Part shown: positions 11,225-62,141 of the stretch, in pieces
Layout: every line of letters begins with the position of its first letter
How positions within the stretch are numbered: position 1 is the stretch's first letter
Source: Bryoerythrophyllum caledonicum
Taxonomy: Eukaryota; Streptophyta; Bryopsida; Pottiales; Pottiaceae
Assembly (NCBI GenBank): GCA_963971425.1
Contig: OZ020515.1
Coordinates: 6,154,291-6,218,290 of the forward strand
Reading direction: 5' to 3'
DNA: 64,000 bases
Notes under the pieces: generated by a model
Seen by the model: only the letters and a program-made list of their open reading frames with translations
The model's database searches: none
What the model was told of the DNA's origin: nothing
Made by a program: the position numbers and the translations under genes

Positions 11225-11800
11225 CAGTGGGGTACCAATCAATATGTCGTTTTTGAATTTGCAGTGAGAAAAATTTCAGTACTGCCAACTTTGAAAGCCT
11301 CTTGAGAGCTCAAAAATTGGTATTTTACCACAAAATTTTTACCGAAGAATTATCTTTAAGTTAATTACATTCATGCCAAATTTCAAGGCCAAAAGATTTA
11401 CCAAAAAATAATTATTCAAAATCTACCAACATTGGTAGCTGTGGAAATTTTTTCACTACTGCCAACTTTGACAGGCTTTCAAAAATTGAATTATTTTTTT
11501 TTGCCATGAAATTCTTGGAACAAAAACCTCTTTATGTTAATAACATATGATAAAAATTTCAAGGTCAAAAGATTAATACAAAAAAAAGAAATCCACAATC
11601 TATCAATATGTGTAGTTGTGGGAAACAATGGGGGAAACCATTTCATTGCTACCAACTTTGACACCCTTCCAACGGTTGAGAAATTGTCTATTTGCCATGA
11701 AATTTTTGGCACAACATGATCTTTATGATAACAACATTCTTGCCAAATTTCAAGGTCAAAAAATTTATACAAAAAAAAATATTTACAATCTACCAACGTG
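11225..11800. repeat. left terminal inverted repeat of the Tc1-like element
   Basis: About 575 bp, matching the complement of 13370-13943. It is itself made of about three imperfect units of roughly 175 bp, each with the order CTGCCAACTTTGA, a TTGCCATGAAATT-like block, TTTCAAGGTCAAAAGATT and AATCTACCAA. Units start near 11263, 11440 and 11611. Confidence 0.85.
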
Positions 11801-12796
11801 CATGTCCTCCATTTGCCTCAATCACTGCTTGTAACCTAGAGGGCATAGAATGACATAGTTGAAGGAGCTTTGTAGCATTGATTAACCTCCACTCTCTTTC
11901 AGTAACTACCTTCAAGTCATCTAAAAATTTTGGACATATTGGGGCATGTTGCACAGCATCTTTCAAAATCTTCCAAAGGCTCTCAATTGGATTGAGATTG
12001 GGAGAATTTGTAGGCCAATCGAGCTTCTCCAAAAGGTGTGTTTGTCTCCATTCTTCACATACTTTGCTACGATGGACAAGTGCGCGATCTTCCATGAGCA
12101 ATCCCTGTGGCACTCTACTCATAAAATGAAGCAACTCGACATTGTAGACTACTTCAACAAAATCCTTAGCAGAATGTCTATCTTTGGGCATAAAAACAAG
12201 TTGTGACTTTTGCCCTCCAGCAAATGCACCTCAAATCATCAAAGAAGTTATCCACTCTTAAAAGTTGGAACTATACAACTTGATGAATAGCGCTCATATG
12301 CATTTCCCCAAACATGAACTTGTTTAGAATTTTTTCCAACTTCAAAGGTAGACTCATCTGTCCAAACAACTCTCTCCCATTCTTTTATAGTCCACCCGCA
12401 ATACTTTTGAGCAAATGCCAATCGTTTAGACATGTGACGATGTGTCAAAAAAGGTTTTTTAACAACAATTCAATTGAAAATGCCACTCTGATGTAAGGCC
12501 CTTCGAATAGTCGATCTAGACACTTGAGTAGAACATATATTAGTGATCTCAGAGAGTGTCGAGCGACGATCAGTTTTTGAGACACGTATAATAGCACGGA
12601 CATCTCTATCACTAAGCTTTTTAGCATGACTTCCACCACAAGGTTTGCACTTATAAGTTCCACCTTCTCGAAATTTCTTCACTACCCTCTGAACTGTTCT
12701 AACATGGACTCTAACAATAGCTGCAATGTCAACTCATGTCTTCCCTGCCTCACTCAAACCTATTATGCGAGCACAAGTTTCATCTGAAATAGCCAT
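11790..12796 (-). pseudogene. Tc1 transposase (DD34E), inactivated
   Basis: Read from an ATG at 12796. The N-terminal paired-like helix-turn-helix region follows (MAISDETCARIIGL, then RRSTLSEI and STQVSRSTIRRAL). The catalytic core shows WTDEST with the first Asp (about 12365), LMEDRALVHRS with the second Asp (about 12090), and SPNLNPIESLW with the Glu; 34 residues separate the second Asp from the Glu. The frame is broken by a TGA after the first 20 codons (a CGA-to-TGA type change), a TGA near 12468, and a frameshift with stops at about 12215-12250, just before the FAGGQKSQLVF stretch. In the intact state it would encode about 335 residues, typical for the family. It cuts and pastes at TA. 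Family is certain; this copy is dead. Confidence 0.93.
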
Positions 12797-39017: not shown

Positions 39018-42000
39018 CTATGTAGAGTTACAGTAACTATCCGACGATGAAAGGAGAATATCGGACTCCTCTAGTGCTTCGACATCAAGAAAATCGATAA
39101 TACTAAAACTTGAACTAGAGGAAGTGGATGTAGAAGAAGGGGAGACTACATTTGCCATCTGGTTTGCAGCTTGGCTCGCATACGAAGGGAGCAAGAAATC
39201 CCTTTCCGGTGAAACCGCCAACGCCATCAAACTGAAACAAAACGAGACAACACAAATTAGAATGAGTGAAAAAGGAAATATTAGAAGTGAAATTCAATGT
39301 TCAGACTTACTTACTCAAGCGGTTTCTCTTCGTGATCTTGCGGATTGGGGGATCTTCGTCAGTCGTGAGGTCCACAGAGGTGGTCTGAACGGGAGTAGCT
39401 CGAGGAGGCTTTGGCATAAAAAGTGGCTTCAACACCGCCTCAAATACCACCTTATCGGATTCGAAGCCCACGAAGTGCCGACCAGCAGCACGACACGCGC
39501 GAAGGGAGTTTCCTAGATGATCAGAGAAGATGATATTCGGTCATTTATAGAATATTGGAGAAGTCAAAGTAGTAAATCAGAGACTAAAAGTTAATAAAGT
39601 GATACCTGTAGAAGCAAATGCATCGAAGATCACAGTGCCTTGTTTTGTGAGGGCCTCGAATAGCATCTGAAAAAAGATGACGCCCTTCTCCCGTCCAGCC
39701 CTCCTAGGAACATTTCTACGTATAGACTGGGAAGCAAAGTCGTTGTGGTTGAGAAGGACGTTGGTCTCTTCAACTCCCCATCCAGTCTTTGTCAGCTCAA
39801 CATTCACAATGTATGGAAAGGACTCCATTAGTAACGCGTTCCTCACGTATAGGAGGACACGGAATCGATGGGTCTGAAATTGAAAAGAGAAGGAAAAAGA
39901 TCAGAATGAGGTTGAATGTAAATAAAATATGGAGCTCCGAAAGTAGCAAAATAATCACATACCTTCTTTGATGGATTAGATGGCAATGCCAGTGGTAGTT
40001 CGTTCACACCCCACCACTCGCGAAATAACTTGAAGTCGTAGGCTGAAGCGTATGACCGGATGTCGGTGCGGATCTACACAGACTCTGGAATGATAACCAT
40101 AATGGATCCCTGTTCATGAAGAATTGAATCAGCAAATTCAAAGACGGCCTCAACAATCGATTCAGCATAAACATTCCAAGATGGAACATCTTTTGCATCC
40201 CTTGAAATTGATGGGACCCACAGGCCTTCCGGGATGTCCCCGAGGATGAGATCAAAACGACGGTGTGGACATATTGCGCTGCGCGCCGAATTCGATGAGG
40301 TAGGACACACCTGCAAGAACAAATACAACAAGAGAAAACTTGAATTAAAATCAAGGAACTGAAAAAAAAAACATGCCATAAATACACGTAATAATAACTG
40401 AACTTCACTGGTTGAAATAATTAGCGGCTAACCGAAAGCGGCAGTATCCCAATGACTGCCACTTTCGTTATATTAGAATTGCAAACTAAGGCAAAAGCTC
40501 TCAAGCTTCAGAAAGTGTTTCAGGGTACTAATCGAAGAGAGAAGTGTATGATAAACTAGTTGAAGTGCGGAATGAGAGTGCCGCCAACGGCAGTTCAACA
40601 AGTTCCGAATTAAAATAAAAAAATAGGGCACGACTTGCTGAAATGTATAATATTTGGCGTAATAAACATGGAGAGGCTTACCTTCAACATGAACTCGTTC
40701 ACTCGTAACATGCAAGGGTGATCTTTTCCACCATTCACCATATCCTGGAGAGATGAAAGCTCCACTCTGATTCCCATCTTAGGAGTTGTCGCACTTGGTG
40801 GAGAGAAGGCATCATGAAACGCCTTTCTCTTCATCACATGGGATGGTTGAGGCGGAGGGGAGACCTTAAGCTCTGGAGAAGGATCTTCATCTGGAAAGGC
40901 CAGCCCGGCAGCTTCAGTGGAGTCGGCCTCGAGAACCGCTGAAGGAATGACGACCTCGACTTCAGACTCGCGCGATGAAGATCCTCGAGTCTTCTTTGCG
41001 GCTGCCTTTCCCTTCCCCTTTGCTCTAGTTGCTGCAGCAGTTGACTGTACATTGCTCTCCACACCTTTGAGCTCTGGCTGAATGCCATCTCATAGTGCAA
41101 TGTCAAAATGAGGCGGACTCTGGAGAGGGCAGTCCAGATACCAGCCGCAGCGCTCCCAATGCTGAGGGCCCCAATCAGCCTGAATTCCCTCAGATATCAT
41201 CGTGGATGGGCTCTTGGGATCCAGGTAGGACGCAAAGAAAGGAGGGTTGCGGGTCACGGCCCTTGCCGGCATGAGGATGTACTTGAAGTACCGGTATAAT
41301 GTACGCCGCAATGCTGATGTGAACCCGAACTGATCAGTAGGTTCAAAGTTCTTGTGTACGCCCTTGTCGACGTTGAACTCCCGATAGAAGGCTGAATCCC
41401 ATAGCTGAATTCGAAGTTCTTCAATGTAGTCCGCAATTTGTGTAATGGGCTCGCCATTGTCAGGGTCGTAGTTGACATCCACACCAATATCCGAGAGTGA
41501 GCCTTCCAACAGCCGCTCCGCTTCGATAGACAACTGCGAAATGAATCCATGCACTTAGAATAACAGACTCCTACTTCAATGTAGAAGCAAAAAAGAAATC
41601 TTGCTTACCTGCGCCCACCAAGTAGCGCGGTGAAGCCGATCAGGAAACTCACTGTCCGGAAACTTCGACTTTGGAAACCTGATAGATTCCCGAAGATTCC
41701 CATCTCTATTCCAACGCTACAGCCATTTCACTTTCATTAAAGGATCCATGGCAAAAGTTGCGAGCATACTTAGCTTCTCTTGGGTCATCTCCGCGTCGTC
41801 CTCATGAGCTTCGTATGAAGCTTAACTTGTCCCAGGAATGAAGGCGTATGCTTCGGATCAGCAACTGGAAGTTGCTTCTGAAGCTTAGAAAGGGTGGATA
41901 ACTTCATTTTCTCCACAGCTTTCTTTACGAAGTCTTGCGCATTCGTTGAAGTCCACTCATTTGGATCTGGGAACTTCTCAGCAAATTTCCTTTGCGCCAC

Positions 42001-42024
42001 CGCTGCGGCTTCTCCGATTTCTTG

Positions 42025-43577
42025 CTGTTAAAATTTCAGTTTGTGAAACAGAATTCATATTAGATCAGGGTTAATGAAATTAAGTAGCCCAACCTACAAA
42101 TGCCACAGCCTTGAAAATGAAGATTACTGTTCAGGTTTAGGGTATGACGCTGCCGGCAGACTACAGATACCACAGCTGAATTCCGGTAATTAGTTACAAG
42201 CTCAACCGACTGATAAATTCTGCCTATTCATTGGACTGCAATATCCTAACAGGGTCAAGCATTTACATAAACCAGATGCACAAATTATCAAGTCGCATAA
42301 TTGGATCGTGTCGCAAAATAAACATTCCAGTGAATGCAAAGCTCATCGAACCACATTGGATCTTCATATATAAGTTCGGCACTCTGAATAACAAGGCCAT
42401 GTCTGTAGCGGCAGACCTCTATAGCCCAGCCCCCCCTGACCATACCATGTTGTTTACAGGTAGTGAGGACATCCTATATTTGCGAGTGGAGTCATATTTA
42501 TGATCTAAAGATGGCGTAGTTAGTATGCCGGCAGCGGCAGACGTATACAGAGCCATTAAAAAATGTAGATGCCATGTGCCGATAAGCACCTGCCGCTGTC
42601 GGCAGACCTTAAGCAAACAGATCATAGCTTGAATTAGGAGTCTAAACGACTTTATCACGGTACCGCAAGATGCAGATGAACTAGAATCAAGGTCGGCAAT
42701 AAGGGACTGAACCTCCACCAAGTCAAACTCACACATGAGCTCTGTGTTCCAAGCGCCGAAAAGAAGTGCCACAAACAGCTTATTCCAATCAACAACTCCA
42801 TAACCAGAGTCCACGGAATCATGATAACGATGTCGGTATTGACACATAGGACTCCCGCTGGCGGTAGACCTACCAGTTGCCAAGCTCTCACCCTAAATCT
42901 AACCACCTAGGAGGTATGCCACCAGCGACATACCTCCGACCCGACACATTTTCAATAGAGAACGTATATTTCATGATTATGGACGAGGTTGATTAGGGGG
43001 CGAGAGTTGGAGCCGGATGGTCTGCCGCTAGCGGCACACCTTCAAAGCGCAAAGCAATCACTGCTTTACATGGCGCTATGGTGGTGTGCCGCTAGCGGCA
43101 GACCATCCTGCAACCACTCTCCCCCATTGATCAACCTCGGACATTGTATCTTGAACCATTTTACAGTATAAGTTGACCAACACATGCGGCGTGGAGGTAT
43201 GCTGCTGACGGCACACCTCTCATAGCCCACGCCAGCATGGGCAATATGAGGTGTGCCGGCAGCGGCACACTCGTCAGCGCTCACGCCGTGACACGATTTC
43301 ATATCCTAAGAACATCCTCAGACACCAAAATCGTGTCACGGCTTGGGCAATAAGAGGTGTGCCGGCAGCGGCACATCGCTCAGCGCGCAGGATGACACAA
43401 GAACTCGGGGCTTGAAGATGTTTTTTTGGTCACCGAGTTCTTGTCTCATCCTGCGCGCTGAGCGGTGTGCCATTGCCGGCACACCTTCACGCCAGGCAAA
43501 GAAACTAAAAGCTGCACAACCACATCAAACAAGTAATAAGAAGGAAATTTTCACTACTAATTCAGTCTAATGCATAC
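42025..43577. repeat. intron packed with 12 palindromes, several nested in larger hairpins
   Basis: Copies of a palindrome with half-site GGTNTGCCG and a 3-4 base centre lie at about 42149-42163, 42401-42418, 42522-42546, 42589-42610, 42849-42872, 42910-42937, 43016-43042, 43082-43106, 43194-43220, 43249-43270, 43354-43376 and 43463-43486. They pair into larger inverted repeats: 42988-43138 (arms about 54 bp), 43190-43272 (arms about 40 bp), a perfect 15-bp arm GCCGTGACACGATTT with its complement at 43283-43341, and 43377-43463 (31-bp arms with one mismatch, loop rich in T). This intron lies between methyltransferase exons 6 and 7. Confidence 0.85.
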
Positions 43578-44665
43578 CTGGTATAGGACGGAGTTCAAAG
43601 ACTTCAAAGTCAGCGTGTACCACGTCCGCTTGACGGAGTTCTGCTTCGCTTCAGCCGCATTGATTTCCGCTTTCGAAACGAGCATCTCGAAATAGTTTAA
43701 CGGCTGACCAGCCATTCCTTGTATGCGGTACAGCTTGTGTACAAGATTTGTCGTAACAAAGGACTTCTGGTTTCTCCTGCGCATTTGTTAGAGTACATTG
43801 ATTAGAAAACTATAAATATAAAAGGCAGAAGTTTAGGGAATTGATGCATCTTAGATTCTTACCAGTTAACTTGATGAAGCGCTGAGAGAAGTATAGGAAC
43901 ATATCCATTAACATTTAGCAGGATGGACTCAACCGCATAATGCCAATTGGGGTCATCGCCATGGTCCCGGTTTATAATTGGAAGCCATGCCTAAAGCCGA
44001 TGGTTGCCATCCCAGACATGAAACATCTTTCTCGAAAAGACTTTCATGTCCGGATCCACGTTCAGCCTCAACTAGAACCCCTTGTTCGCCAAAATCCACG
44101 CTGGACTCCAACTCTTTAAGATATCATCTGTGACATCTTCAGTCTTCCCCTCGTGATTCTCTGTCGCGACATAGAACACGCCAGAACCTTCCATGTAGCC
44201 GTTCTTCAAGAAATGCGAGCCGAGGCCCATGACATCGTTCTTCAAGTGAGGTCGAACTATGGGCAGCCCAATCATCCGACAAAGCGGAATGGCAAGCTTC
44301 GACTTCTCTTTAGGCTGAAATCTTAGACCATCCAAAAGAGCTGTCGTATTCACGGCCTCTTTAAGTACCATATCATCCATGTGCTTCTCCAAATCCGCGG
44401 CTGATAGAGGATTTGATGAATTTCGAGCTCGACGTGAAACTTCAGCAACTTCCTCACTTTCTGCCCCATCATCATTCAAATCCAAAGCGTCTGGACCTCC
44501 TGCAAATGACAAACTGTAACTGTTGAAATCACAAGTCCTTTTGAAAATTGGCAAGTCCCAGATTATTACCTGAAGGTTGTATAGAAGAATTCAAGGAGTT
44601 CAGTGTCTCCATTTCCGTATCAGGTTCGTCTTCTCGAGCTGACAAATCTGACAAGCTCTCCATTT

Positions 44666-45645
44666 CTGCAAACGTAGGGAAAATCAGAGGGAGATCAATG
44701 GGAAAGTCATCTTTCAAGGAATGGTGAATAATGTACAAGAAAATTCATAGAATCTTAGTCCAGACGCAGTAAGATCGATCGAATTAGAGAAATTAAAAAA
44801 TCTAGTTTAAAGGTGAGCTGCACTTCTTGAATTCCGATCTACGAATCACTGAGCTGATTTTGCTTAACATAATTCAATACCTGGAGAATAGCAACATGAT
44901 ATATCTCGGTCAGAAAATGACAAGAGTAACATCAACAATCTCAGCGACTATATGATAATGGACCCAACATTAGTACATATGTTGGAAGAGACTGGACACT
45001 TTGCAGAGGGACCACTCCGCTCACAACCTGAGTGCAGGCTTTACAAAATGAGAGAACAATGTCGGTCTAAGTGGAGAAAGATGGACAAACAATTGAAATT
45101 GATCATGGTTTAATCATCCATACAAGCTCCAATTTAATTGACCACAGATGACGTGCACGTGGGTTGGGAATCTCCGAAGTCAGATCCGCGAGGTCCCAGT
45201 CCAAATCCCTACAGTACCGAATTCTGGCGACACCTATTACGAGCCGACCCTTGCCCGTCTGATATAGAGCATGCGCAGGTGGTGTGCCAACGCCGGCAGA
45301 CCTTCCGCGAAGGACCTGTCTATGCAGACATGGACTATGGCAATGCACTGCATAACCTTAAGGCGCGTGACTCAACTGCTGGCGACATACCCATTGACGC
45401 CTTAAACTATGGTGACTAACCCCACGGCGACAAACCCTTTCTCGCCATAAACTCAACTGCTGGCGACAAACCCGCCGGCGACATACCCTCTGACGCCTTA
45501 AAATACAGCGACAAACCCTACTGCGACAAACTCTACGTCGCAATGTTCTGGTGAAAGCAGAGAAGTATGACCGATCATCAACAAACAAAAAGCAAACATC
45601 AACCCTCTACTCCTTACTCAAGCAATAAGCCTAAAGATTTCTTAC
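44666..45645. repeat. intron with one palindrome and a GGCGACAAACCC minisatellite
   Basis: A palindrome copy is at 45279-45303. At 45374-45540 a degenerate unit CTGGCGACAWACCC recurs about eight times. GGCGACATACC is also the right arm of the palindrome at 42910-42937, so the minisatellite appears related to one half-site. Non-coding; the minus-strand open frame across it is Arg/Cys low-complexity. Confidence 0.7.
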
Positions 45646-45960
45646 CTCGGGATCGCGGAGCCGAAGTTGCGTCGCCGCCATCCAACGTCGAGGTTCTCGC
45701 TACCACTTTTGCACGCCCTTCACTATCTCCTGCACCCAATTACAATATGTCTAATTGTCCTCACAGTGCAATGAAATTGATATTTAAGTGAAGTAATACC
45801 CAACCTGTTAAACCCCAAAACTCCTCGACAGCTCACACCTATATGAAATTCAGCATTCGACACGAGAAGTTCGTACCTGCGGTGAGTGGTTCCGAAGATG
45901 CTTCACCGCCCTCCATCCTCGACGATATTGCGACCCCGATCACACGCTGATTTCTGTGTC
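45646..45960 (-). repeat. duplicated 84-bp exons 2 and 3 of the methyltransferase-like gene
   Basis: Exon 45960-45877 and exon 45729-45646 are both exactly 84 bp, share acceptor context (TTGCAG-GACA / GTGCAG-GAGA) and phase, and encode 28-residue blocks that align end to end: GHRNQRVIGVAISSRMEGGE against GDSEGRAKVVARTSTLDGGD. The conserved core is GG-acid-A-(S/T)-S-x-P. This is a tandem exon duplication. Confidence 0.7.
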
Positions 45961-46621
45961 CTGCAACCCCTAGGTGAAGATGGTCAGATAGTCCTCACAA
46001 TCCGTCGACACAAGTGGAACTATAATAACACCTCGGTTGTAGTAAGGTTACTCGACTTGAAATCACTCTAGCCTCACGCACCAAAGCTAACACTTAACCC
46101 TGGAGTACTGGAGTAAGGATTCCGGATACCTTCTTTAAACGAGAAAACCACTCTGAACTAAAAAAGCTAATAGTTTCACTCGCCCTCCACGTTTACTCGT
46201 TATTTAAGAACTTCACCTTCAAACACAAAATTCAATGCAAACCCTAATCCTAAATGTTGTCTGTTGTATACCACGACTGTTCCTTTATCCTACACCAGAA
46301 TGACTATTTCACTCAAGTACCTGTGAGAGTGGTCAATTCTCTCATTTCTGTTCCAACATCGGTCCCCTCGCTCATTTCAGCAACAACTCTATCATTTCCA
46401 ACCTCCTAGAAATTACCCCTTACAACATTGCCTTCTGGAATTCCAGTCTGCAAAGAACTTCTGTCCCTGTCATCACCATTTTGAACTTCACCAAATTCTA
46501 GTTTCTTGGATGTTTCAGGAAAGGAATCCTTAGACTTCCCCATTGCACTTCCCCTGACACATCTACTTCTCATCCGTGTTTTTCGATCACTAAAATAGAG
46601 CTTCTGCTTTCGTCTTTTCAT

Positions 46622-47295
46622 AACAACAAGAAACACATCGGCAAAGAATAACCTCCCTTGTCCTGTTAAGGATGCTTATATTTGGGTCTTTGTTGAATGA
46701 CTCTCCATAAACCCTTTATACCATATCATAAGTAATTTAACCGTTGATATCTTTGTTCTATATATTAAATTATGACCCCCTGTTGGCGACGCCCCCTGCC
46801 AGCATAAATGCCTCGATCCGCCATTGCCAGTTTGATATTTATTTACTTGGCCTTAATGTGCGCGAACCGCCAGATACTCTTATGTACTGCCACCGAAAAT
46901 TTAATTTCATTGTCATTTTAATTTAAATTCACCAATATCATTAACCCCCTGTACCAAACCAGGACTTTAATTAGATGTAATTTCTGTTGAACGTAATCTT
47001 ATATCCCGTGATAAAGAATGACCCCATATTAGATTTACATACCTCTCTTTGATTCTTCTATCATTTTGTAATCATTCACCCTTGAATTTTCTACCTCATT
47101 AACTATTTCGCAGCACAACAATTACACTTTTCAGCTGTTGAGATTTTAGATCTCAATCCCCCGTCAAGATTTCTAATGCAATAAATCAAAACTCGTCTGG
47201 CAATGATCGTGCCATGATACACCTTCCAGCCTTTATATGGAGGACCCCTTCCATCGTCTTGATTCTCTTCAGTAGCAGCCTCGTAATTGTTTAGA
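46622..47295. promoter_or_regulatory. shared intergenic region between divergent genes
   Basis: Separates the two start codons by 674 bp; AT-rich, with TATATATTAAATT near 46758. It contains GC-rich fragments reminiscent of the palindrome half-site (GTTGGCGACGCC near 46786, CCGCCATTGCC near 46818) but no full copy. A bidirectional promoter is plausible, not shown. Confidence 0.4.
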
Positions 47296-50200
47296 ATGGC
47301 TTCCATGGCGGATCATGTTCTGGGATCTGTCGTAATCCGTGGTGATAGTGCATCGGTCCCGATATTTTTTCCTACTGATTCTGAGGGAATTGCGTTTGTA
47401 GGTTCCCTTCAATTAAGGCAGCGTTTCAACATCATTGAGGGGTCCTTGAATGTTGAGAAAGAGGAGCTTGACGTGTTCACAGGAGAGCTCACACACACTA
47501 TAGCGCAATCATCTTGTATTCGGAACAACGTAGTAGTCTGGCCATTTAGGGCCGGGAAGTACATAGTGTATGGAGCTAGGGATAGTCCTGACGATTCCCC
47601 TTCACTTTCCTTAACACCGAAGTTGTCTACTTCTACATCTCAGGTGACACCTTTGATGCAGAAAGTGAAATTAGAACCGGATGTGAATCTTATTCACATC
47701 CTCAGCGATGCCTCTGAAAGTGAGAGTCCAGGTCATAGGCCAGCTGAATCCGAGAAGACATCGTCAATTCCGGCTAAGGCTCTGACTAAGGCTCCGGCAA
47801 CTGCTCCCAATTTCTCTCTGCCTTCAGGCTCCAAGCCATCGGTGATAACTAATCCTGATCAATCTTCTAGTACTTTGGAGTGTCTTCGTAATCTTCGGTC
47901 TCGATCCAGATCAAAATCTATTTTAACGAAGATAGACTTTGATTCCATTAGAATTGAGAAGGTTGACTTCCTTCCAGCTGCTTTCAATGGAGATGTCATC
48001 TTTGAGCTTCCACCTTTGAGAAAAGGAATTTCTTCATCACAGGCAGGGTCGCTCTTCGGTATGGATAAGAAACATGACGGACATAGTTGGACAAGAACCG
48101 TGACCACTCACATTGCCAATGATTCCAACCTCACCTTCAGGACATCTTCCTGCTTGGGACATTTGCAATGTCTCAATCTTCAATGCGAATACTTGCAATG
48201 GAAGCATAGAGGATCAAACGTTAATGAGACTAAATGGTAGGGCACTTCGTCTTTAGTATTTGGGGTCGGTGGAGCTACTCTTCCGGGTTCAACAGTTGTC
48301 TACAAACTTTGCCGAGTTCAGCCAACCTGTTTAGATAGCTGCCCGACAAAAATTTACTATGTGTTGGGAAAGGACACCATGACCCGTCTATGTGTCCATA
48401 TGGGAACTCATGTGCATCCGGTAAAATTAGGCAACTGTCGAGATTCCTCCACAAAGCTGAAGACTCTGATTTTGGAGCAAGTAGAGCGGACCCCTACTAC
48501 CACAAACTCTGCCATTATTTTAGAAGCCAGTAAGGAGTTCCTCGGTGAGCTACTGTTATGTCCAGAGGGAGTTCCACAGAAGCCACTAGTCCTAGACGAT
48601 CTAGTTCCGGTTCTGGAGAAATTTAAGCAAATGACATCTCTTAGTATCCGCAACGAGGTTACAACATTTAGATACTTGCGACGCTTTGGTATAATGGATA
48701 GCATCACAAAACTTCGGGGATCAACCAATTGGGCTTTTGTAGAGCAGAATCGATTTCCGGGCCTAGGCACTGATTTGGACAAGGTGTTCCTGTTTAAGAT
48801 GGCCGAAGTTGGTCATGGGAGTGGCGTAGACCTTGTGAAGCGAATGCAACCTGGAGGAGACCTTGAAGATTCCTAGATCATGTTTGACCATGTCAAACGA
48901 GTTAAAGGATGGACCACGATGGATTGTCATGTGTACGATTCAACTTACTGCAAAGTGATGACGATTGCCGTATGTGACATGCAATCCGAGGACGTCAATG
49001 CTCAGCTAGTGTTTTGAAAGAATTTGAATGCAGTTGCTGCACGACACGATGTTTCTTCAGTTTCATTCAAGGGGTTCATGGCTGATAGCGCACGGCCAAT
49101 TGGAATGCACTCCGCATTCTTTACGGGAGCAGTGATGCGTCAGTACCTATGGACAATCGCGAGAGAACGTGCCTTTTCCACTGGACTCAATCCCTCGAAA
49201 AGCATACAAAGGCTGACATTAGAGCCGACCTTCGAGAGCAACATCGTGAGCTTTGCAAGCAGTACAAAGATGCAAAGACAATGGAGGAAGCCGAAGCAAA
49301 GTACTTGGCGATCAAAGCATGGTGGTTATCTTCGGGTGCAACATCTGATGCCGGTGCCGTGCGTCTTGACTTATGGCTTGCCTTTTGGCATTTTCGATAT
49401 CGACAATGGGGTGGGTTTATGGTATCGGTAAGTCCTCACCTCATTCATGGCACTTAGATTTTAAAAGAGTTGGTTACTACTTAATTGAATATTCAATTTT
49501 TGACAATATTTGTGACCAATGTGACGGCAGTCTGAATCATGCTATCTGCGGGGGGTGTGCCGTCAGCGGCACTCCTTAGATGTGTAGACCTTCATAGTGA
49601 GAACTGTACTACATGATGGGGATCTGCCGTCAACGGCAGACCTAATTGCTGTCATTAATAAACCTTGAGTAGGCTTCATGTGGACTACTCTGCCGGTTCT
49701 GGCACTCCAGTCTTGAACGATTTCACCGCTTCACTTGAGACCACCAATGTTCTTTGCCGCTACCGGCACAACAGATTGGGCTAGTCCACTACGTCAGTAG
49801 TTTTTCCTTCACAACTGATGCGCCGTCTTCTTTCCCTTCACCTTGATTTTCTTTCACTTGTCGACCCGTTTATTTTAGTCTTGCAGATGGGTGTGCCGTT
49901 GACGGCACACCTTTTGGATGGACCATTTCCTTTGGAATGGCCGTACAAATGGACTCCGTTTTTTTTTGGTTTTTTTTTCACAGGTCCTAAATATTGGTTT
50001 CAACTCTTCATGTATTGACTTGCCTCGCCGTCTTGCTCTTTGTGATTTTTTGCAATTTTCAGTTTCAGCTTGTTATCTTCAAGTTCATTGATCATATTAT
50101 CTTGAATGTGGTCTACAGGAACTTTCCGATTCTGAATTGGATGAAATGCCATCTTGCAATTTAGCGGAGATTGTCCACAACAAGTGGTTGGAGCAGTTGG

Positions 50201-51567
50201 GAAAGCGTGGAAATGATTTATACGTTGCCATAGTCGATGACATGGTTCGGGCATTCATGCAAGTCGTGGCTTGCTATCAATACTCAAAAGGTGAGCGAGG
50301 AGGGCAAGGGCCTAGGAAGGAAGAGCTTCGACTTTGTGCTGCTCATCGGATTGCTCAACGTTCAGGGAACTCAAAATCACTTCATGAGGCTTTCTGTAAT
50401 ATGCCTGGCGCTGCTGAATTTTGCACTCGCCCTCCGCATTTGGAAGGAGAAGAAGTCTTCTTGTCCGTGAAACGAAAGCCAGACCTTCCTCCCGGATCGG
50501 AGTTCGATTCTCATCGTCCAGACAAAATCAACGTTTCACGTCCTAGAGTCGCAACAAGGGCGTCTTCACAAATTACCGTGGACCTTACTACTGACGATTG
50601 TGTCTATTCAGCAGTTGCGGAAGCTCCAACGAACCTCGCTAGTATCCCTAGAAAAGGAATTTCAACTAGAGTTACCCACACTATGGGTGTGTTGGAGACT
50701 GCCTGTGACGAGAGCAAGTGGCATATCGCTAGGCTTCCGAGGACATCAGCGAAAGCCTGTTTTGCACAACAGGCTGGTACGAAGAAGAAGTGTACTGCTC
50801 GAATTGTGCAGAATAACAAGAGTACTGCCGCACCGACTTACACTGGCATGATGAAGAACTATAAGAAGACGCGGCTTAATAAGATGCAGTTTTTCTTTTG
50901 TAACGATGACATCAATCGTTGTATGATGGGATGAAAGAGGGACTGGGTTATTTCTAAGCTAGCGGTCCCCGATGTTTGGCCAGTTAAATCTGGCATGTCC
51001 CTCACGAAGGCCGAGGTTCTACGTCTTGGAAATGCGGGTTTTCGACTCGCCGAGCGCGCATTGCTCTCTTCACGGAAGTTGTTCTCTCAGGATGGTGCAG
51101 TCTTTGACTTGAAATCTGTTCCAACTCCGGTGAACTCAGATGAGCATCCAAAGCGGAGATTTGGCAAGAACGTCCGCCGGAACCCGAAGGCCCCTACCAC
51201 CAGACATCGGAACACCTGCGCATCTACACTTTCGGTTCTTGGAAAAATCAGTAATCTTCTTATGCTCCCAGATCCCGCATTTGGCTGCATTATCTCGTTC
51301 GAGTCCAAATCCATTACTAAGGTTTCAAACTACATGATTTCTATCAGTCAATTTCCTAGTTGTGACTGCTTGTCTTTCAAGGAGATGTCTAGCAAGTCTC
51401 TTGGCAGACGTCCTCAATGGTGTTACTGCAAACATCTATATTTTGTCTTCACCATTGTTTGTGAGCTAGATCCAGAGGTGGATGTGTATATGCACGCCCC
51501 TAGTTTTAGCTTCAACGAGATAAAGCGTGTTCTCAAAGTGCTGCTTCAGAAAGAGGGCTGCACGTAG
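47296..51567 (+). pseudogene. Mutator-like transposase with SWIM zinc finger (2 exons), inactivated
   Basis: ATG at 47296 (MASMADHVLGS). Exon 1 47296-49427 and exon 2 50119-51567; the junction ATCG/GTAAGT to CTACAG/G keeps phase. About 1,193 codons. After an unrecognised N-terminal third comes the MULE core: HVYDSTYCKVMTIAVCD with a candidate first Asp (about 48925), FKGFMADSA with the second Asp (about 49068-49094), ERTCLFHWTQSLEKH (about 49156), and a Glu-rich helix before IKAWW. Near the C-terminus CDCLSF and, 12-20 residues on, CYCKHLYFVF form a SWIM finger (about 51360-51450), usual in plant MULE and FAR1-type proteins. In-frame TAG at 48238 and 48874, TGA at 49015 and 50932, and one lost base near 49094 break it. 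Role: cut-and-paste transposition. Confidence 0.82.
49428..50118 (+). repeat. transposase intron with five copies of the shared palindrome
   Basis: Palindrome copies are at about 49553-49576, 49621-49642, 49688-49708, 49752-49771 and 49889-49913 (for example GGTGTGCCGTT followed by GACGGCACACC). These are the same family as in the methyltransferase introns. Donor GTAAGT and acceptor CTACAG bound the intron. Confidence 0.85.
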
Positions 51568-51622: not shown

Positions 51623-51647
51623 CGCCGGTTCCCGAAGGGAACCGGCG
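51623..51647 (-). other. 3'-terminal hairpin of the LINE
   Basis: A perfect 11-bp GC-rich stem (CGCCGGTTCCC with its complement) closes a 3-base loop. On the element's sense strand it is followed directly by TTCTTCTTCTTC. Position at the extreme 3' end suggests a structure recognised by the reverse transcriptase for priming; this role is inferred. Confidence 0.75.
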
Positions 51648-54600: not shown

Positions 54601-57600
54601 TATTAATGGGGTATGTGGTAGGGTTTTTGGGGATGTATGTTGGGGGGCGGGGGTGGTATGTATGTGGAGGGTTAGGGGGATTGGTTGGTGTGGGAATATT
54701 TCTTGGGATGATGTTGTTGTTGAGGGTGATGAATGGATCTTTAAGTGTATGAGAGTATGGGTGTATCTTGCAAGGAGTATGACATATAGTGGGGCATGTT
54801 ATGTGGCAAAATAGTTGCTTAGCAACACTTAGGGCACTCTTTATTAGTTTAGATGGGGTGAAGTGGTAGGTTTTGAAGTCATCATTGTTCATGATGTGTG
54901 TACCGTTAGGTAAGGTAATTTGGTTTAGTTCAAAAATATTTTTTGAGAGGAGTTTTTGTAGAAGCATTTGGGAGAGTTGGGCATTGAGTGTGTTATGATT
55001 TAATGTTTCTTGGCGCCATAGTATTTCTAGTGTTGTAGGATGAGTGAGGAAGTTCAGGAGCGTACTTTTAAGATGGGCTTTAGCTATATGTTTCAATAAG
55101 AAGAATGTTCGTGTTATTGGTGATCTTATGCAGTCACTTTTTTTAATTCTTTGTATGTTTTCAGCGCCACCATATTGGGCAAGGACATAGTGAGTTAATC
55201 CATTATATATTTTCCCAAGTCTTCCTTTATGGTTTTAAGCATTTTGCAATTGTTCGCCTATACATCGGAGGTATGCATTTTTGAGGGAGAAAGCTTCAAG
55301 TCCAAATAGGTTATGTGGTAGTTGGGTTATTGCATTTGACATACATTTTGGTAATCCACATATGGTTTTTTGAATGGCTATTATTTTTTTATCAAATTTT
55401 TTGATAGCTGGCATAGAGTATGGTACACCGTAGAAACTGTATGCCACACCTGGGCGTAGTACGGTATCAACCATTTTTATTTTTTGTTTCATGGTGGTTG
55501 GGCATGTTGTTAGTTCTTTGCATTGTTTGATGAGCTTTGTGGTTGTAGTGTGGATTTGGATTTTCCATTTTAGTGAGGGAACAAGATTTGTACCTAGGTA
55601 TATGTATGGTTCGTTTTGGTGTAGTATAGGGATTGGTTGGTTGCGGTAGTTGATGTTGGAGGTTTGCATTAGGGCTTTGAAAGTGGTAGGGTTCAATTTA
55701 GATTTGTTTGGGCATCCGGTAGCGGCACATTTTGGAACTCCCACATCCATGCCAGCCCATTTACAATATCTATCAATTTTATGGAGTTGTATTTGGAGTG
55801 ATTTGATATTGTTAGTTATGGTGGCTAGGTCATCTGCGTATGCGGCGGAGTTTATTGTGACTTGTGATGTGCCGAAAGTATATCCATTATTGCCTCTTTC
55901 TAGCCATCTAAGTAGTGGTTCTAAAAATATAATAAATAGGTATGGGTTGAGGGTGTCCCCTTGTATAGTTCCTCTTTGGATGGGTATAGGTTTTGTTTTC
56001 CCAAAGTGTTCGCCGATATAGCAAGTAGATGATTGGGAATAGATGTTTCCAACAAGTGTAGTTGCCTCTTTTGGGTAGCCAAGGTCTGACATTATTGCTA
56101 GAAGTCTGGCATGATCAATTGAGCCAAAGGCATTTTTGAAGTCCACGTATAGTATGTATATATTTTGGTTAGTAAATTTTGCGTCTTCTAATGCGGCTAT
56201 TATAGTTTGTATTTGCCGTGCGGTACTTCTCTCCGCTCTAAATCCTTCTTGACTATCATGTAGGATTTTGAATTTTTCGCCGTATGAGGATAGTATGTGG
56301 GTGAGTGTACTGGTAAAAAGCTTATATATTGTGTTAGCTAGTGCAATTGGTCTATGATTGGGTAGCATGGATGGATCGCCTTTTTTGTATAGTAGAATTG
56401 TTGCACTTGTTTTCCATGAATTTGGTATTTGTTTTTGTTTATAGCAGTGAGAAAAGAGTAGTTTATGAAATCTTGGAGGCATGTTTTTGAGTATTGAGTT
56501 TGGTATGCGGTCTGGGCCTGGGGCTTTATTATTTCCAAGATTTTGGAGGCATGTGTCGTATGTGGCTCTGTTGAGGTATTTATGTAGTGGAATTTCTGGT
56601 TCGCCCCGTTCGTCAAGGGTATATCCGTCCAGGTCGTGCCAAGGGTATTGGCGTATTGCACATGTGCATTCTATTGTATGTTGTGGCTGGTAATTACATG
56701 TTGGTACTGTTGGTCTATTGGTTTTTGTTTGTTGGTTGAATATTTCATTCGCAATGTCTTCGGGGCTAGTTAGAATATTATTATATTGATCTTTGATACA
56801 ATCCATTGGTGGGGATTCAAGGTTTTTAAAGACTTTTTTGTTAATTTTTTTGGGGCTGGTTTCGTATAGTTGTCTGTATTTTGAGATGGCTTTTTTAATG
56901 TTTTCTTTTGTGTATTTTGTGATTATTTTCCGGGCTTGTATGTTGGCATTTTTTGCAATTATCGCGATATCTTTTATCCATGTATCGTGGGGAAGGTCCG
57001 GAGGCGGCAGGGTAGGGATTTGGATGTGTTGTGTATTTGATAGTTCGTTGTGTATGGGGTGGTTACGCCATTGAGGGTTGTTTTTTACAATTCTAATGGT
57101 TTTACGTATGGTATGGTATGTGGTTAAGTGTTGTTTCCAAATTTTAGAAAGTTTGCGGGGTAGATACCCGCCTTGTTGAGAGGTTTTGTTTGTCATTTGG
57201 GGTATTGGGTGTGCTCTACAAGTTTGTTCTAGTGTATCAGAGATTTTATTGATGAGTTTGTCTAGAGAGTGGCATGCTTCTTGCCATTGTGCTTGTGTTA
57301 ATTGACTATTGATTTCAAGAGTGTTTATGAGGGAGTCTATTTGTAGGGTGTTTTCTTCGAAGAATTTTGTGTTGAATTTTTCTATGTTGGTTTTTGGGAT
57401 GGGGTTGAATATGCGTATAGTGTCTTTGTTTGGAATTGTAGGAGTTCTACTAATTAGTGTGTTATTTGGGATGTGCAGTTGTACGGGTGAGTGGTCCGAA
57501 TTGAGAATACTATCTTTGTTTGTTGTGGAGGTGTATTGTGTGTTGTTGTTTGTATTTATATAGAAACCATCTATTAGACTCCAATCACTATAATTGTAGC

Positions 57601-58879
57601 CACCTTGTCTAGAGAATTGTGTATCGGTATTGATGTAAGTGAAGTTTAAGTTTTCTGTGAAGCGGCGCCATTGGTAATCAATGTTTTGAGGGGGGGTGTG
57701 ATGGTTTCCATTTTGGCGGCCAATTAGCGCTATGTCTCTATTGAAGTCTCCACATAATAGGTATGTATGATTGGGATGATTATTAATATGGGTTGTAATA
57801 GTGTTTTGTATATCTAAGAGAAATCTAGTATCTTCGGGATGGGATGGCATATACATGTGAAAGATTAACCACGATTGTAGTGGGTGATTAGTGATTTTAA
57901 TTATTTGAATGTATGGTGATATGTGCATTGGGGTAGGGATTTTGTTGATGTTGCCGGGGAATGTATATTTTTTGTGTATTAATGTAAGGAGGCCACCGCG
58001 GCCCGGTGTATATGGTCTCCTTTGTTGCATGCATCTTGTAAGTGCATGTGTATTGTTAAAGATGAGTTTATAGTCTTGAAATATATTTTGTATATAATTT
58101 GTAGATTTTGTGGCGGTTAGTTTTGTTTCTTGTATAACTATAAGAGCCGGTGGTGTGTCTGTGTTTGCGACTAGAGTTTGTAAGCTAGGAAGGGCAGTGT
58201 TTAGTGAGGAGGCATTCCATGTGATTATGTATGTATTTTCTTGGTTTGGTCTAATGTTTTGATTTTGGTTTTGAGGAGGGATGTAGGGAGGAGGTGGGGG
58301 TGGGTGGGTGTATTCTGGTATAGGGTCTAGACATTTTAGTGATTCACTTATGAGGTTGTTAGGGAGGTAAGGGAATTTTAGTTTTATTATATCATTTGAG
58401 GGTGGTATGTCTTGACTATGTAAGAAGTCGTATAGTCTTTTATGTATTGAGTTCTCATGGTTTATAATATTTTGGTTGTCTACTAGGAATTCAGTATAGG
58501 GGTGTGGGATGTAAATGTGTCGTTCTGGTGGGTTTTGTAAGGTTAGTAAGGTTTGTAGGAGTGTATTAGTCCATGTAATTGTGTTCCAATCTTGTGGATT
58601 TAGAAGTTGGTTACATTCATCTATGTTTGGATGAGTAGTGATTATTAGTGCATATAAGATGTGAGGTGGTGGATGCGTATTTTTTTGTTGTATGTATTGG
58701 GCAATGTTTGGGTGGGAAGTGTTTTGTATGTGGTGTAATGTATGTGTATTTTTTAGAAATGGTGCGAAGGGTTTTGCAATGTGTTCATATTCTGGTTGGA
58801 GTTTTATGGTATAAGGTATAAAGTAGATTTTGGCATTTTTTTTATGTGATGTAGGATGTCTTTTTAGTATATTGGGCAT

Positions 58880-58903
58880 GGGTCCCGGGTTGGTTTCAAT
58901 GTC
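58880..58903 (-). other. intact 2A-like ribosome-skipping motif
   Basis: The minus strand encodes LLLLLGGDIETNPGP, which fits the 2A signature D-x-E-x-N-P-G-P preceded by a hydrophobic helix. In known 2A peptides the ribosome fails to join Gly and Pro, releasing the upstream protein. Here it would separate the repeat-rich leader from the endonuclease/RT part at residue about 732. Confidence 0.85.
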
Positions 58904-59389
58904 TCCTCCTAGAAGTAGTAGGAGTTTGTGGTATATATGTTTAGTGGTGTATTTTAAAGGCTTTGTTGTGTTATTAATGACTTGTTGGTTTGGGGGTAGG
59001 TGGATGTTTGTATTTTGTGTGTGAGTTGTGGGTTTATTTATTTTTATAGTAGGTGTAGTTGTTTTCGTCTTTAGTTTATTTTTTGTCCTTGTGTTTTTTG
59101 TGGTTGTTTTTGTTTTAGTAGTGTATGGATGTATGTATGATTGGTTGTATTTTATCTTGGTTGTTTTTGTCCGTGTGCATATGTAACTATTATGTTCAAG
59201 ACTATTTGTATGTGGGTTTATGTTGGTTTTTAAAGTGGCTTTTAAGTCCTTTTTTTCATATGCGGTGTTATTATATACTTTGTGGTTTGTACAATTGTTT
59301 GTTTTGGTGTTTATATTAGTATTTGGTATGAAATATGTTTTGGTATTCTTTTTGTGCGAAGCGGGGTGTCTTTTTAATATGTTCGGCAT

Positions 59390-59413
59390 GGGTCTTGGGT
59401 TAGTCTCCATGTC
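59390..59413 (-). other. second 2A-like motif, mutated at the critical Gly
   Basis: Encodes LLILIGGDMETNPRP, where NPGP is changed to NPRP (GGA to AGA). This change is expected to abolish skipping. The next residues (MPNILKRHP, SHKKN) match those after the intact copy, so the two arose by a duplication with a 510-bp (170-codon) period. Confidence 0.8.
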
Positions 59414-59639
59414 TCCTCCAATTAATATTAGTAGTTTGTAGTAGATGGGTTTTTTGTTTTGTTTTAGAATTTTTTGTTTTTGAATGTGGCTTTGGTATTT
59501 GTGTTTTTTTGATTGTATGTGTTTGTCTTTGTATGTGTGTATGTATATGTATGTGTTTCGTTGATGGTGTGTGGTTGTCTTTGTGTGTGTGTATGTAGTT
59601 TTATGTGGTATTATATTAGTATTCTTTTGTATGTTTGTA

Positions 59640-59900
59640 TTAGTGTATGTCACGGTTTTTGTCTTGGTATTTGTATCGGTATTTTTGTTAGTATTTGTGT
59701 TAGTATTCGTATGAGTACACATACCACTATTTGTATTGGTATTTGCATTTGTATAAGTATAAGTATTTGTATTTATATACATACCAGTATGTGTAGCAGT
59801 ATATGTACCAGTATTTGTATCAGTATATTTATAAGTATACTCATCGGTGTATGTATCAGTATAAGTATCGGTATACGTATCAGTATATGTACCCGTATAT
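59640..59900 (-). repeat. Thr-rich dipeptide/hexanucleotide repeat in ORF2
   Basis: On plus a degenerate GTATCA/GTATTT-type hexamer array. On the coding strand it gives alternating Thr with Asp, Asn, Gly or Tyr (for example TDTYTDTYTDTYTDEYT). It stays in frame with ORF2. Confidence 0.8.
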
Positions 59901-60279
59901 TGAAATATTGAGTTTTGTAAAAGATATCTTTCTAAACATATTTTGTCTAAAACTATGGTTTCTAAAAACAGAATGATATTAATTTCAATCAGATTCGTAT
60001 ATATTTTTACTTTTATTAGAATTTCTATTTTTAGTAAGTCTATTTTTGGCGCGTTCGGCGTCCATCCGACCGGCGAGACATCAATCCAACCTCCAATTTT
60101 AATAATCCTATATACTCTCAACAAAATTCTACTATTTAATAGCGAACTCCCCTCATCTTTATATGTAAAATTTTTTATATTACTATTAACTTTCCATTTA
60201 TCCCTGTAGTTTATATTCCAATTTCTATTTTTAGCCTGTATTCTTTTATTACTACTATCTTCTCTATTTATTTTTTCTC

Positions 60280-60900
60280 TTAAATTTTTGTTTTTCATTA
60301 CAAGTTTGGTTAATTTTCCATCCGTTATTTTTGAATTTCTTAGGAAGTATAATCTATTTTTAGAACTGCTGTTTATAGCTATAGCCTTCATCTTTGTATT
60401 CTTATTATATTTGATTCGCATTACTGTTTTGGTGCATTTTTCATCCTTTATTTTTGAATTTCTTAGGAAGTATATTCTATTTTTAGAACTTCTGTTTATA
60501 GCTATAGCCTTCCTATTTGTATTCTTATTATATTTGATTCGCATTACTGTTTTGGTGCATTTTTCATCCTTTATTTTTGAATTTCTTAGAAAGTATATTC
60601 TATTTTTAGTATTGTTGTTTATAGGTATAGTCTTCTTATTTGTATTCTTATTATATTTGATACGCATTACTGTTTTGGTTAATTTTCCATCCCTCATTTT
60701 TGAATTTCTTAGGAAGCATATTCTATTTTTAGTTCTGCTGTTTATAGCTATGTTCTTCATGTTTGTATTCTTATTATAATTAATTCCCATTACTAATTTT
60801 GTTAATTTTCCATCCCTTATTTTTGATTTCCTTAGGAAGCCTATTCTATTTTTACTACTCCTATTTTTTGCTATGTTCTTGTTATATGTATTCTTATGAT
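60280..60900 (-). repeat. 123-bp tandem repeat encoding 41-residue units
   Basis: About four and a half in-frame copies of a unit starting KNRIYFLRNSK and containing TKTVMRIKYNKNTN. The nucleotide period is 123 (for example TTGATTCGCA at 60411 and 60534). Length is a multiple of three, so copy-number change keeps ORF2 open. Strongly basic; may bind nucleic acid. Confidence 0.85.
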
Positions 60901-61268
60901 AATGGTTTTCTACCTGACCCTTTATTTTCTTCTTACATATCCTCTCCGATTTTTTCGTTTTATTATTAATATTTCTTGCGCTATTTGAAACCTTTGAAAT
61001 TTCATAAATATCTATCTTCTTCCTATTTAGTTTATAATATCTCTTTTTACTCTCCTTGATTTTCCTATTTTTAGCCATTTTTTCATCCCTTATCTTCTGA
61101 TGGTTTCTGAATTTAGATTCCCTTCTACCCTTATTTATCTTTATTACAAGATTTCCTTTGTTGTTTTCATTATTATTGTTTCCTTTTTTGTTATATGTAG
61201 TTATGATACTTATTTTCTCTTTCCTTTTATTATTTATTCTAATTCCATCTCTTCTCTTATTTCTTTTA

Positions 61269-62141
61269 TTATTTTTTTTTTTTCATACTTTTGTTTTTTG
61301 TTTGTATATTTAATCTATACCTTTGATTAATTTCATCCATTTCATTTATTTTTGGGTTTGTTTTTATTTTATTATGTGTAGTTGTATTGGTTGTGGTTGT
61401 ATTGGTTTTCGTCTTCACACGTATGTTTTTATTGGTATATGTCTTGGTATTTGTTTTAGTATTAGTATTTGTCTCAATATTTATGTCATTGTTTGTCTTA
61501 GTATTCGTACAAGTATTTGTACCAATATTCATTCCAGCTTTTGTACTAGTGTCCATATCAGTATTTAAACCTGTATTTATATCAGTATTCGATCCAGTAT
61601 TCGTATCAGTACCCGTATCAGTATTTGTTCCAGTGTTTGTACCTGTATATGTAATAGTATGTGCATTATTGTTGGTATTTTCACTATGTATTGTATTGTA
61701 TGTTATGGAATATACTGTCGGTTTCAGTTTTGTGTATGGAGCTTGAGATATGTATATTCCCGTTTTTTTAATACAGTGTAGGTATTTTTTAATGCGAGTT
61801 TTGGTATAATGTTGTATTTTGTATTGAGAGTATTGTTTAATACAATAGAATTGTTTGTGTAGTGCAAGTATTGGTATTTGTTTGTGGCTAAGGTATGTAA
61901 GTGTTTTTGTATAGTTTTTGTATTGCATATAGTAAAAAATACAACGTTTGGTATAGTATGTAGTATGGTATAGTCTACTGTATTTATCATGGTATTGGGT
62001 AAGGTGTCTAATACGGTATGTGTATATTGTTTTCACATACTTGTATGCTATTGCGTATTTAAGACTAGTGTCAATAAAGTATCGTAAACTATAGTATATT
62101 GTAAGATAGGTATGTATTTCCCTGCGGTCTTGGGAGGTCAC
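61269..62141 (-). CDS. middle ORF of the LINE, Tyr/Lys then Thr-rich
   Basis: Open for about 290 codons. It has no ATG near its 5' end; the first possible start is GTG at 62141, which lies inside the ATG-TGA that ends ORF1 (62143-62138). N-terminal half is rich in Tyr, Lys and Ile (for example HTYLTIYYSLRYFID); C-terminal half is a Thr/Asn/Gly/Asp dipeptide repeat (61400-61640 on DNA) like that in ORF2. No known domain. It could be reached from ORF1 by frameshifting, or joined to ORF2 by splicing, or be non-coding DNA kept open by its skewed composition. It is separated from the ORF2 start by about 190 bp and is in another frame. Confidence 0.45.
   Translation of the reverse strand: MTSQDRREIHTYLTIYYSLRYFIDTSLKYAIAYKYVKTIYTYRIRHLTQYHDKYSRLYHTTYYTKRCIFYYMQYKNYTKTLTYLSHKQIPILALHKQFYCIKQYSQYKIQHYTKTRIKKYLHCIKKTGIYISQAPYTKLKPTVYSITYNTIHSENTNNNAHTITYTGTNTGTNTDTGTDTNTGSNTDINTGLNTDMDTSTKAGMNIGTNTCTNTKTNNDINIETNTNTKTNTKTYTNKNIRVKTKTNTTTTNTTTHNKIKTNPKINEMDEINQRYRLNIQTKNKSMKKKK

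Follow-up and report, generated by a model that had tools for sequence, protein, structure and literature searches.

Why should a gene resembling a DNA methyltransferase stand head-to-head with a transposase gene in the moss Bryoerythrophyllum caledonicum? The window, by which we mean the whole 64-kb stretch analysed here (C2:6154291-6218290, from a genome of 437 Mb in 894 contigs), contains these two genes on either side of a short intergenic region (Table 1). The initial annotation had proposed that they form a DNA transposon encoding its own amino-methyltransferase, and for a methyltransferase-like protein this proposal holds up, as the divergent pair recurs through the genome and related copies have common borders with target-site duplications. 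We consider it likely, with the presumed function included, that this pair represents the decayed core of an autonomous Mutator/IS256 transposon carrying a divergent amino-type methyltransferase-like gene. For the structural part of this explanation, namely the pairing, the target-site duplications, the methyltransferase by profile, the transposase by fold model, the amplification and the palindromes, our confidence is high. The functional part, in which recognition of palindromes would lead to methylation or to displaced host silencing, is put forward tentatively.

The recurrence of the pair was assessed with the window methyltransferase as query (best 46 of 5,153 candidates scored) and with the window transposase (best 63 of 3,262). 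Among the matches listed, 17 of the 46 methyltransferase loci have a transposase within 25 kb. Eight loci were probed with 1.5-kb pieces, and pairing was checked at 20 of the 46 methyltransferase loci in total. The three probed loci without a listed transposase do contain transposase sequence; among the remaining five, the probes met transposase in three and methyltransferase exon 1 in two (L037 and L040), where the listed transposase lies just beyond. At C3:36.38 Mb, where the region upstream of a third-family transposase was fetched, a methyltransferase gene apparently carrying a frameshift and an insertion lies about 0.6 kb from that transposase. Rather than occurring independently beside different neighbours, the two genes are divergent in 17 of 17 loci with a listed transposase, in three of three probed loci without one, at the single third-family locus and in seven of the eight loci of a second family. 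The exons of the three families share 26-71% protein identity, and their order is the same.

The eight second-family loci were found by searching the genome with the Pfam profile PF01555 (N6_N4_Mtase), which, with 150 of 235 candidates scored, gave eight matches, every one of them above the cut-off. These loci align along about 19 kb, mostly at 95-99% identity with single pieces down to 89%. At the eighth locus, on C9, homology breaks off, the searched stretch yielded no transposase, and family palindromes lie about 8 kb beyond the fetched end; an insertion may split the parts of this locus. The left border is common to all eight loci, and the right border of the seven that have one agrees to within a base. 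Target-site duplications flank all seven copies with both borders. Six are exact and measure 9-11 bp when the last base is placed optimally; the seventh, of 9 bp, has a single mismatch. Between the termini, GGGGAATGCTA and GAGGGAGGCTA, there is a loose likeness and no long repeat. For the window copy itself we found neither a target-site duplication nor a terminal inverted repeat, four local alignments of its flanks scoring within shuffles; on its right side the copy runs into an open reading frame, resembling a long interspersed nuclear element (LINE), that ends at 51,860. One second-family copy of 19,154 bp is free of stops in all tested exons (the first methyltransferase exons lie outside the test), and five of the eight copies are open in each of the six methyltransferase exons that were tested. 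With such closely similar copies, one of them open in all tested exons, this transposon family has recently been amplified.

Pooled over pairs of second-family copies, the ratio of nonsynonymous to synonymous substitution rates (dN/dS) is 0.42 for the methyltransferase and 0.48 for the transposase. Within the methyltransferase it is 0.31 for exon X1, 0.65 for the two motif exons and 0.90 for the linker exon X4. Methyltransferase changes common to at least two copies comprise 11 silent and 6 replacement changes, and private ones 41 silent and 90 replacement changes. From these small counts, we read a constraint that would have acted while the elements were mobile, with decay setting in later. 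A third gene, G3, was noticed at the left end of the second-family element (for example, element positions 380-1636 of the copy at C4:12.9 Mb); it has a Cys/His-rich end that is RING- or PHD-like by eye and a weak Fez1 match below the cut-off. Because nothing in the window matches G3 and the gene has a pooled dN/dS of 0.96, we kept it out of the shared core.

The assignment of the methyltransferase is clearest in the second family, where PF01555 matches over positions 2-219 of its 221 (4.4e-8, 33.8 bits; cut-off 26.7). Motif IV of the protein reads ADLVIIDQPF and motif I reads VVDLNASIGASLLA; the order IV then I is that of the beta class of amino DNA methyltransferases. The canonical catalytic motif IV is (D/N/S)PP(Y/F/W). 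The second-family copy that was read retains the D and the aromatic residue (DQPF), and the decayed window copy has DIPE; in both, the canonical PP is departed from.

In the window, a GT-AG splice model with consistent phases reproduces the 12-exon minus-strand gene described in the initial annotation, exon 12 being the least certain part. The spliced product has 1,234 residues once its six in-frame stops and single frameshift are bridged as X; the transposase, in our reading of its frames, has four stops and one frameshift, in line with the similar decay noted before, and the start codons of the two genes flank exactly the 674 bp reported between them. Scored against the whole window protein, PF01555 stays below its cut-off (E 6.7e-5, 23.4 bits), and the domain score of the C-terminal block exceeds it (4.3e-6, 27.3 bits); in both scorings the match is confined to the motif I half. 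A DNA-methyltransferase family of PHROGs also matches the window protein (2.7e-7), as do an NCBIfam profile (4e-4, far under the NCBIfam cut-offs) and DpnA (5hek) in the PDB (0.004). In addition, the second-family motif IV exon aligns to window positions 40253-39978 (E 7.6e-5), and window exon 5 shares 39.8% identity with second-family exon X1 over 166 residues (E 5e-35). The profiles place the C-terminal block inside the DNA methyltransferases, as first read, and by profile the protein is predicted to be of the N6-A or N4-C class. Searches of a large protein set found no methyltransferase relative. Multi-exon genes are probably under-represented in it, because all but one of its 54 transposase relatives are short, at 662-855 residues, and most end close to the intron position.

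Two other readings of this gene were considered. The DGNHRL of exon 5 resembles a ParB/sulfiredoxin-like motif, a likeness unconfirmed by profile or fold: Pfam gave no match, the model had a predicted local distance difference test score (pLDDT) of 39, and a profile search of the PDB returned a single weak, unrelated match (0.052). An altered genetic code, considered for the in-frame stops, which are mostly TAG, was set aside, since open frames in the standard code exist among related copies. We also observed VDLTTDE/VDLTTDD, presumably resembling a SUMO-interacting motif, both in the methyltransferase near 39.4 kb and in the transposase near 50.58 kb.

For the transposase, 54 homologues with 41-73% identity, scored over residues 280-800, were obtained from the large protein set, where they were drawn from 8,000 candidates sharing most words; one of them, P0001, spans both halves of the protein. 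In the fold search, the structure model of the window transposase came closest to a bacterial IS256-type transposase, which supports a predicted RNase H-like DDE type and the Mutator/IS256 assignment. The SCNLAEIVHNKW of exon 2 likely holds the catalytic E, and the C-terminal Cys/His block resembles SWIM by eye. Neither the window nor the second-family transposase has any Pfam match, MULE (Mutator-like element) and SWIM profiles included, an absence compatible with membership. Of the two-exon MULE-SWIM transposase initially proposed, the Mutator affiliation is upheld by the fold search and the profile-based label is not, and hidden Markov model searches of the pair returned PF01555 and no MULE profile. 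In two scans of viral contigs, made with transposase queries only, no relative appeared. Among contigs of prokaryote genomes, the transposase query found one relative (46% identity), which largely fills a 4.1-kb contig of a cyanobacterial metagenome bin, probably a misbinned eukaryotic contig. A perfect hairpin, CCGGTTCCCGAAGGGAACCGG, lies at 51625-51645, directly after the transposase stop codon.

The intronic palindromes said to be common to both genes proved far denser than chance predicts. Exact TGCCG-N4-CGGCA occurs 11 times in the 64 kb, always between 40579 and 49894 and always in introns of the two genes, with none in exons; the expectation in 12.6 kb is 0.01, and none of 200 first-order Markov simulations contained more than one. 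With at most one mismatch, GGTGTGCCG-N4-CGGCACACC is present at 1,536 places genome-wide, and the reversed control at none. Among the matches listed, 50 distinct places, all on C1, fall into 11 clusters; eight of these clusters (37 places) are at listed methyltransferase or transposase loci, and the other 13 places lie outside the loci listed. The second family has a palindrome of its own, GGTGTTCTGTACAGAACACC, with 15-17 matches per copy in seven copies and none in the flanks (at most five mismatches), against at most one match in five single-base shuffles of each copy. Genome-wide, GGTGTTCTGTACAGAACACC has 21 matches at no more than one mismatch (control, none), 18 of them within the seven bordered copies; the remaining three are those about 8 kb beyond the stretch fetched for the eighth locus. 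The window-type palindrome is absent from the seven second-family stretches at up to four mismatches, as is the second-family palindrome from the window at up to five; the third-family stretch has GGCCGTCCG-N5-CGGACGGCC and one of the TGCCG type. The palindromes are family-specific and concentrated in the introns and non-coding parts of the elements. Near one of them, methyltransferase intron 3 has a tandem array at 45381-45528, whose repeat unit of about 45 bp includes GGCGACAAACCC.

Table 1 Features of the divergent gene pair in the window.
Feature	Position	Strand	Support
Methyltransferase-like gene, decayed, 12 exons	46621-39018	minus	GT-AG and phase-consistent splice model; exons matched at the 46 genomic loci scored
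Methyltransferase gene, exons 1-6	46621-46321, 45960-45877, 45729-45646, 44665-44570, 44499-43863, 43776-43578	minus	
Methyltransferase gene, exons 7-12	42024-41609 (holds the one frameshift), 41533-40682, 40310-39963, 39873-39606, 39512-39311, 39231-39018	minus	
Exon 5: conserved block with VWDGNHRL motif	43863-44499	minus	Match to second-family exon X1
Exon 9: motif IV region, LILGDIPEGLW	39963-40310	minus	DQPF at same place in second family
Exons 10-11: motif I region, VIFDAFASTGNSLRACRAAGRHFVGFESD	39311-39873	minus	PF01555 profile positions 171-218; DpnA 5hek
Intergenic region between both start codons, 674 bp (presumed bidirectional promoter)	46622-47295	.	Coordinates of both gene models
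Transposase exon 1: N-terminal domain, zinc-binding block and an RNase H-like core that includes the C-x2-H motif and the first two acidic residues	47296-49427	plus	54 homologues, invariant columns, model and fold search
Transposase exon 2: SCNLAEIVHNKW and C-terminal Cys/His block	50120-51567	plus	Full-length homologue P0001; second-family T2a/T2b alignments
Palindrome, methyltransferase intron 8	40575-40596	.	
Cluster of roughly 12 palindromes GGTGTGCCG-N4-CGGCACACC, exact or degenerate, methyltransferase intron 6	42135-43489	.	
Palindrome, methyltransferase intron 3	45278-45306	.	
Five palindromes of the same GGTGTGCCG-N4-CGGCACACC type, transposase intron	49551-49915	.	

Chance neighbourhood of two unrelated decayed genes would fit the window taken alone, where no terminal repeats were found, but the pairing recurs at unrelated sites and within common borders flanked by target-site duplications, and we give chance practically no credence. 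What does weigh against an element carrying both genes is that 46 of the 63 transposase loci have no methyltransferase within 25 kb among the matches listed, and elements without the methyltransferase gene may exist; this lack could also be explained by partners beyond the matches listed. The same partnerless loci would suit a methyltransferase that is a mere passenger, a host gene captured by some elements through transduplication and without any role for them, and MULEs do tend to take up host gene fragments according to the accessible portions of PMC6446971. A passenger is nevertheless very improbable in our view, since its position, orientation and exon order are the same in three families as divergent as described above, the family palindromes lie in the introns of both genes, and the pooled dN/dS of the pair is below 0.5.

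If the methyltransferase-like gene does serve the element, its protein, or an element-encoded partner, would recognise the family's own palindromes, leading either to methylation there or to displacement of the host silencing machinery; the element would then stay expressed or be marked for its own transposase, with the two genes presumably expressed across the short shared promoter. We propose this function because the layout of VANC targets, in the parts of PMC5735166 consulted, is parallel. In one possible though doubtful form, the element-encoded amino-methyltransferase would write N6-methyladenine (6mA) or N4-methylcytosine (4mC) at family palindromes in its own introns, and the mark would separate element from host DNA, block or bypass silencing based on C5-cytosine methylation, and co-diverge with the palindromes. 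Alternatively, the fold may have been kept and the enzyme activity lost, leaving a sequence-specific DNA-binding anti-silencing factor that binds the family palindromes, like VANC of the Arabidopsis VANDAL MULEs. The departure of motifs IV and I from the canonical forms speaks for such a factor, as do family-specific motifs in introns and non-coding parts, which VANC targets also show in the text seen of PMC5735166; however, PF01555 still covers both motif regions above the cut-off, motif IV of the second family keeps its D and aromatic residue, and binding is itself hypothetical, so we would not rely on this possibility either. An active enzyme might instead mainly control transposition, its methylation licensing or timing excision or marking self DNA for the transposase, much as Dam methylation acts for some bacterial insertion sequences. 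The methyltransferase is retained beside the transposase in three families, and palindromes lie inside the transposase intron; yet they occupy introns and internal non-coding parts, away from the element ends, and we judge a main role in transposition control unlikely.

Several known systems resemble parts of the element proposed here. MULEs have 8-11 bp target-site duplications and extra open reading frames, and their terminal inverted repeats are long in many and absent in non-TIR (terminal inverted repeat) MULEs, as outlined in the sections consulted of PMC6446971. The VANDAL elements are likewise of MULE type with extra genes, and the family-specific short motifs in their introns and upstream or other non-coding regions are recognised by an element-encoded anti-silencing protein; VANC, however, is described as motif-binding, the term methyltransferase did not turn up in the main text of the paper, and its motifs are 9-mers in tandem repeats whereas ours are dispersed palindromes of about 20 bp; the likeness is one of organisation (PMC5735166, seen in part). 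Fungal DNA transposons with TET/JBP also carry a DNA-modifying enzyme, but it is a dioxygenase, and the main text of PMC12730594, as far as consulted, lacks the words MULE and Mutator although MuDR families are mentioned. The same portions of PMC12730594 describe MuDR and HarbingerS families of Phytophthora with a SET histone methyltransferase, that is, MuDR-type elements with an epigenetic modifier, but one acting on histones. DIRS retrotransposons with a Dam-like N6-A methylase, and dinoflagellate and charophyte retrotransposons with cytosine DNA methyltransferases (DNMTs), are eukaryotic elements that encode a DNA methyltransferase as well; they differ in being retrotransposons, the C5 enzymes are structurally unrelated and the DIRS likeness is by description only (PMC5890265, in the excerpts available, which also mention DNA transposons with DNMT in marine viruses). 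Bacterial DpnA and CcrM have the PF01555 profile and the motif order IV then I in common with the element gene, which differs in being multi-exon and eukaryotic, about 1,200 residues long, with long N-terminal parts and variant motifs.

In the open-access literature, with most subscription papers and bioRxiv outside its scope, our search found no MULE or cut-and-paste element with an amino-methyltransferase. Retroelements able to rewrite DNA marks are already known, with DNMTs or Dam-like enzymes, and so are fungal DNA transposons with TET/JBP; to these the present case would add an amino-methyltransferase-like gene in a Mutator-type element. The arrangement suggests that these elements may mark or shield their own DNA, and if true, an element methyltransferase could supply amino-methylated DNA in bryophytes. 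With several young families, an open copy and family-specific palindromes, both element self-recognition and a possible plant source of 6mA or 4mC are directly testable.

Scans of the whole 64 kb for Rfam families, at gathering thresholds, and for tRNAs gave no match. Elsewhere in the window, a LINE-like open reading frame on the minus strand (55235-61282) contains the motifs GGDMETNPRP and GGDIETNPGP near 58.9 and 59.4 kb, which we take to be 2A-like; they are preceded by very long Thr/Tyr/Asp and Asn/Lys low-complexity repeats and sit upstream of what, by eye, is presumably an endonuclease/reverse transcriptase region. By eye, we also noted a Tc1-like transposase fragment at 11790-12230 on the minus strand and a Copia-type gag at 4571-5461.

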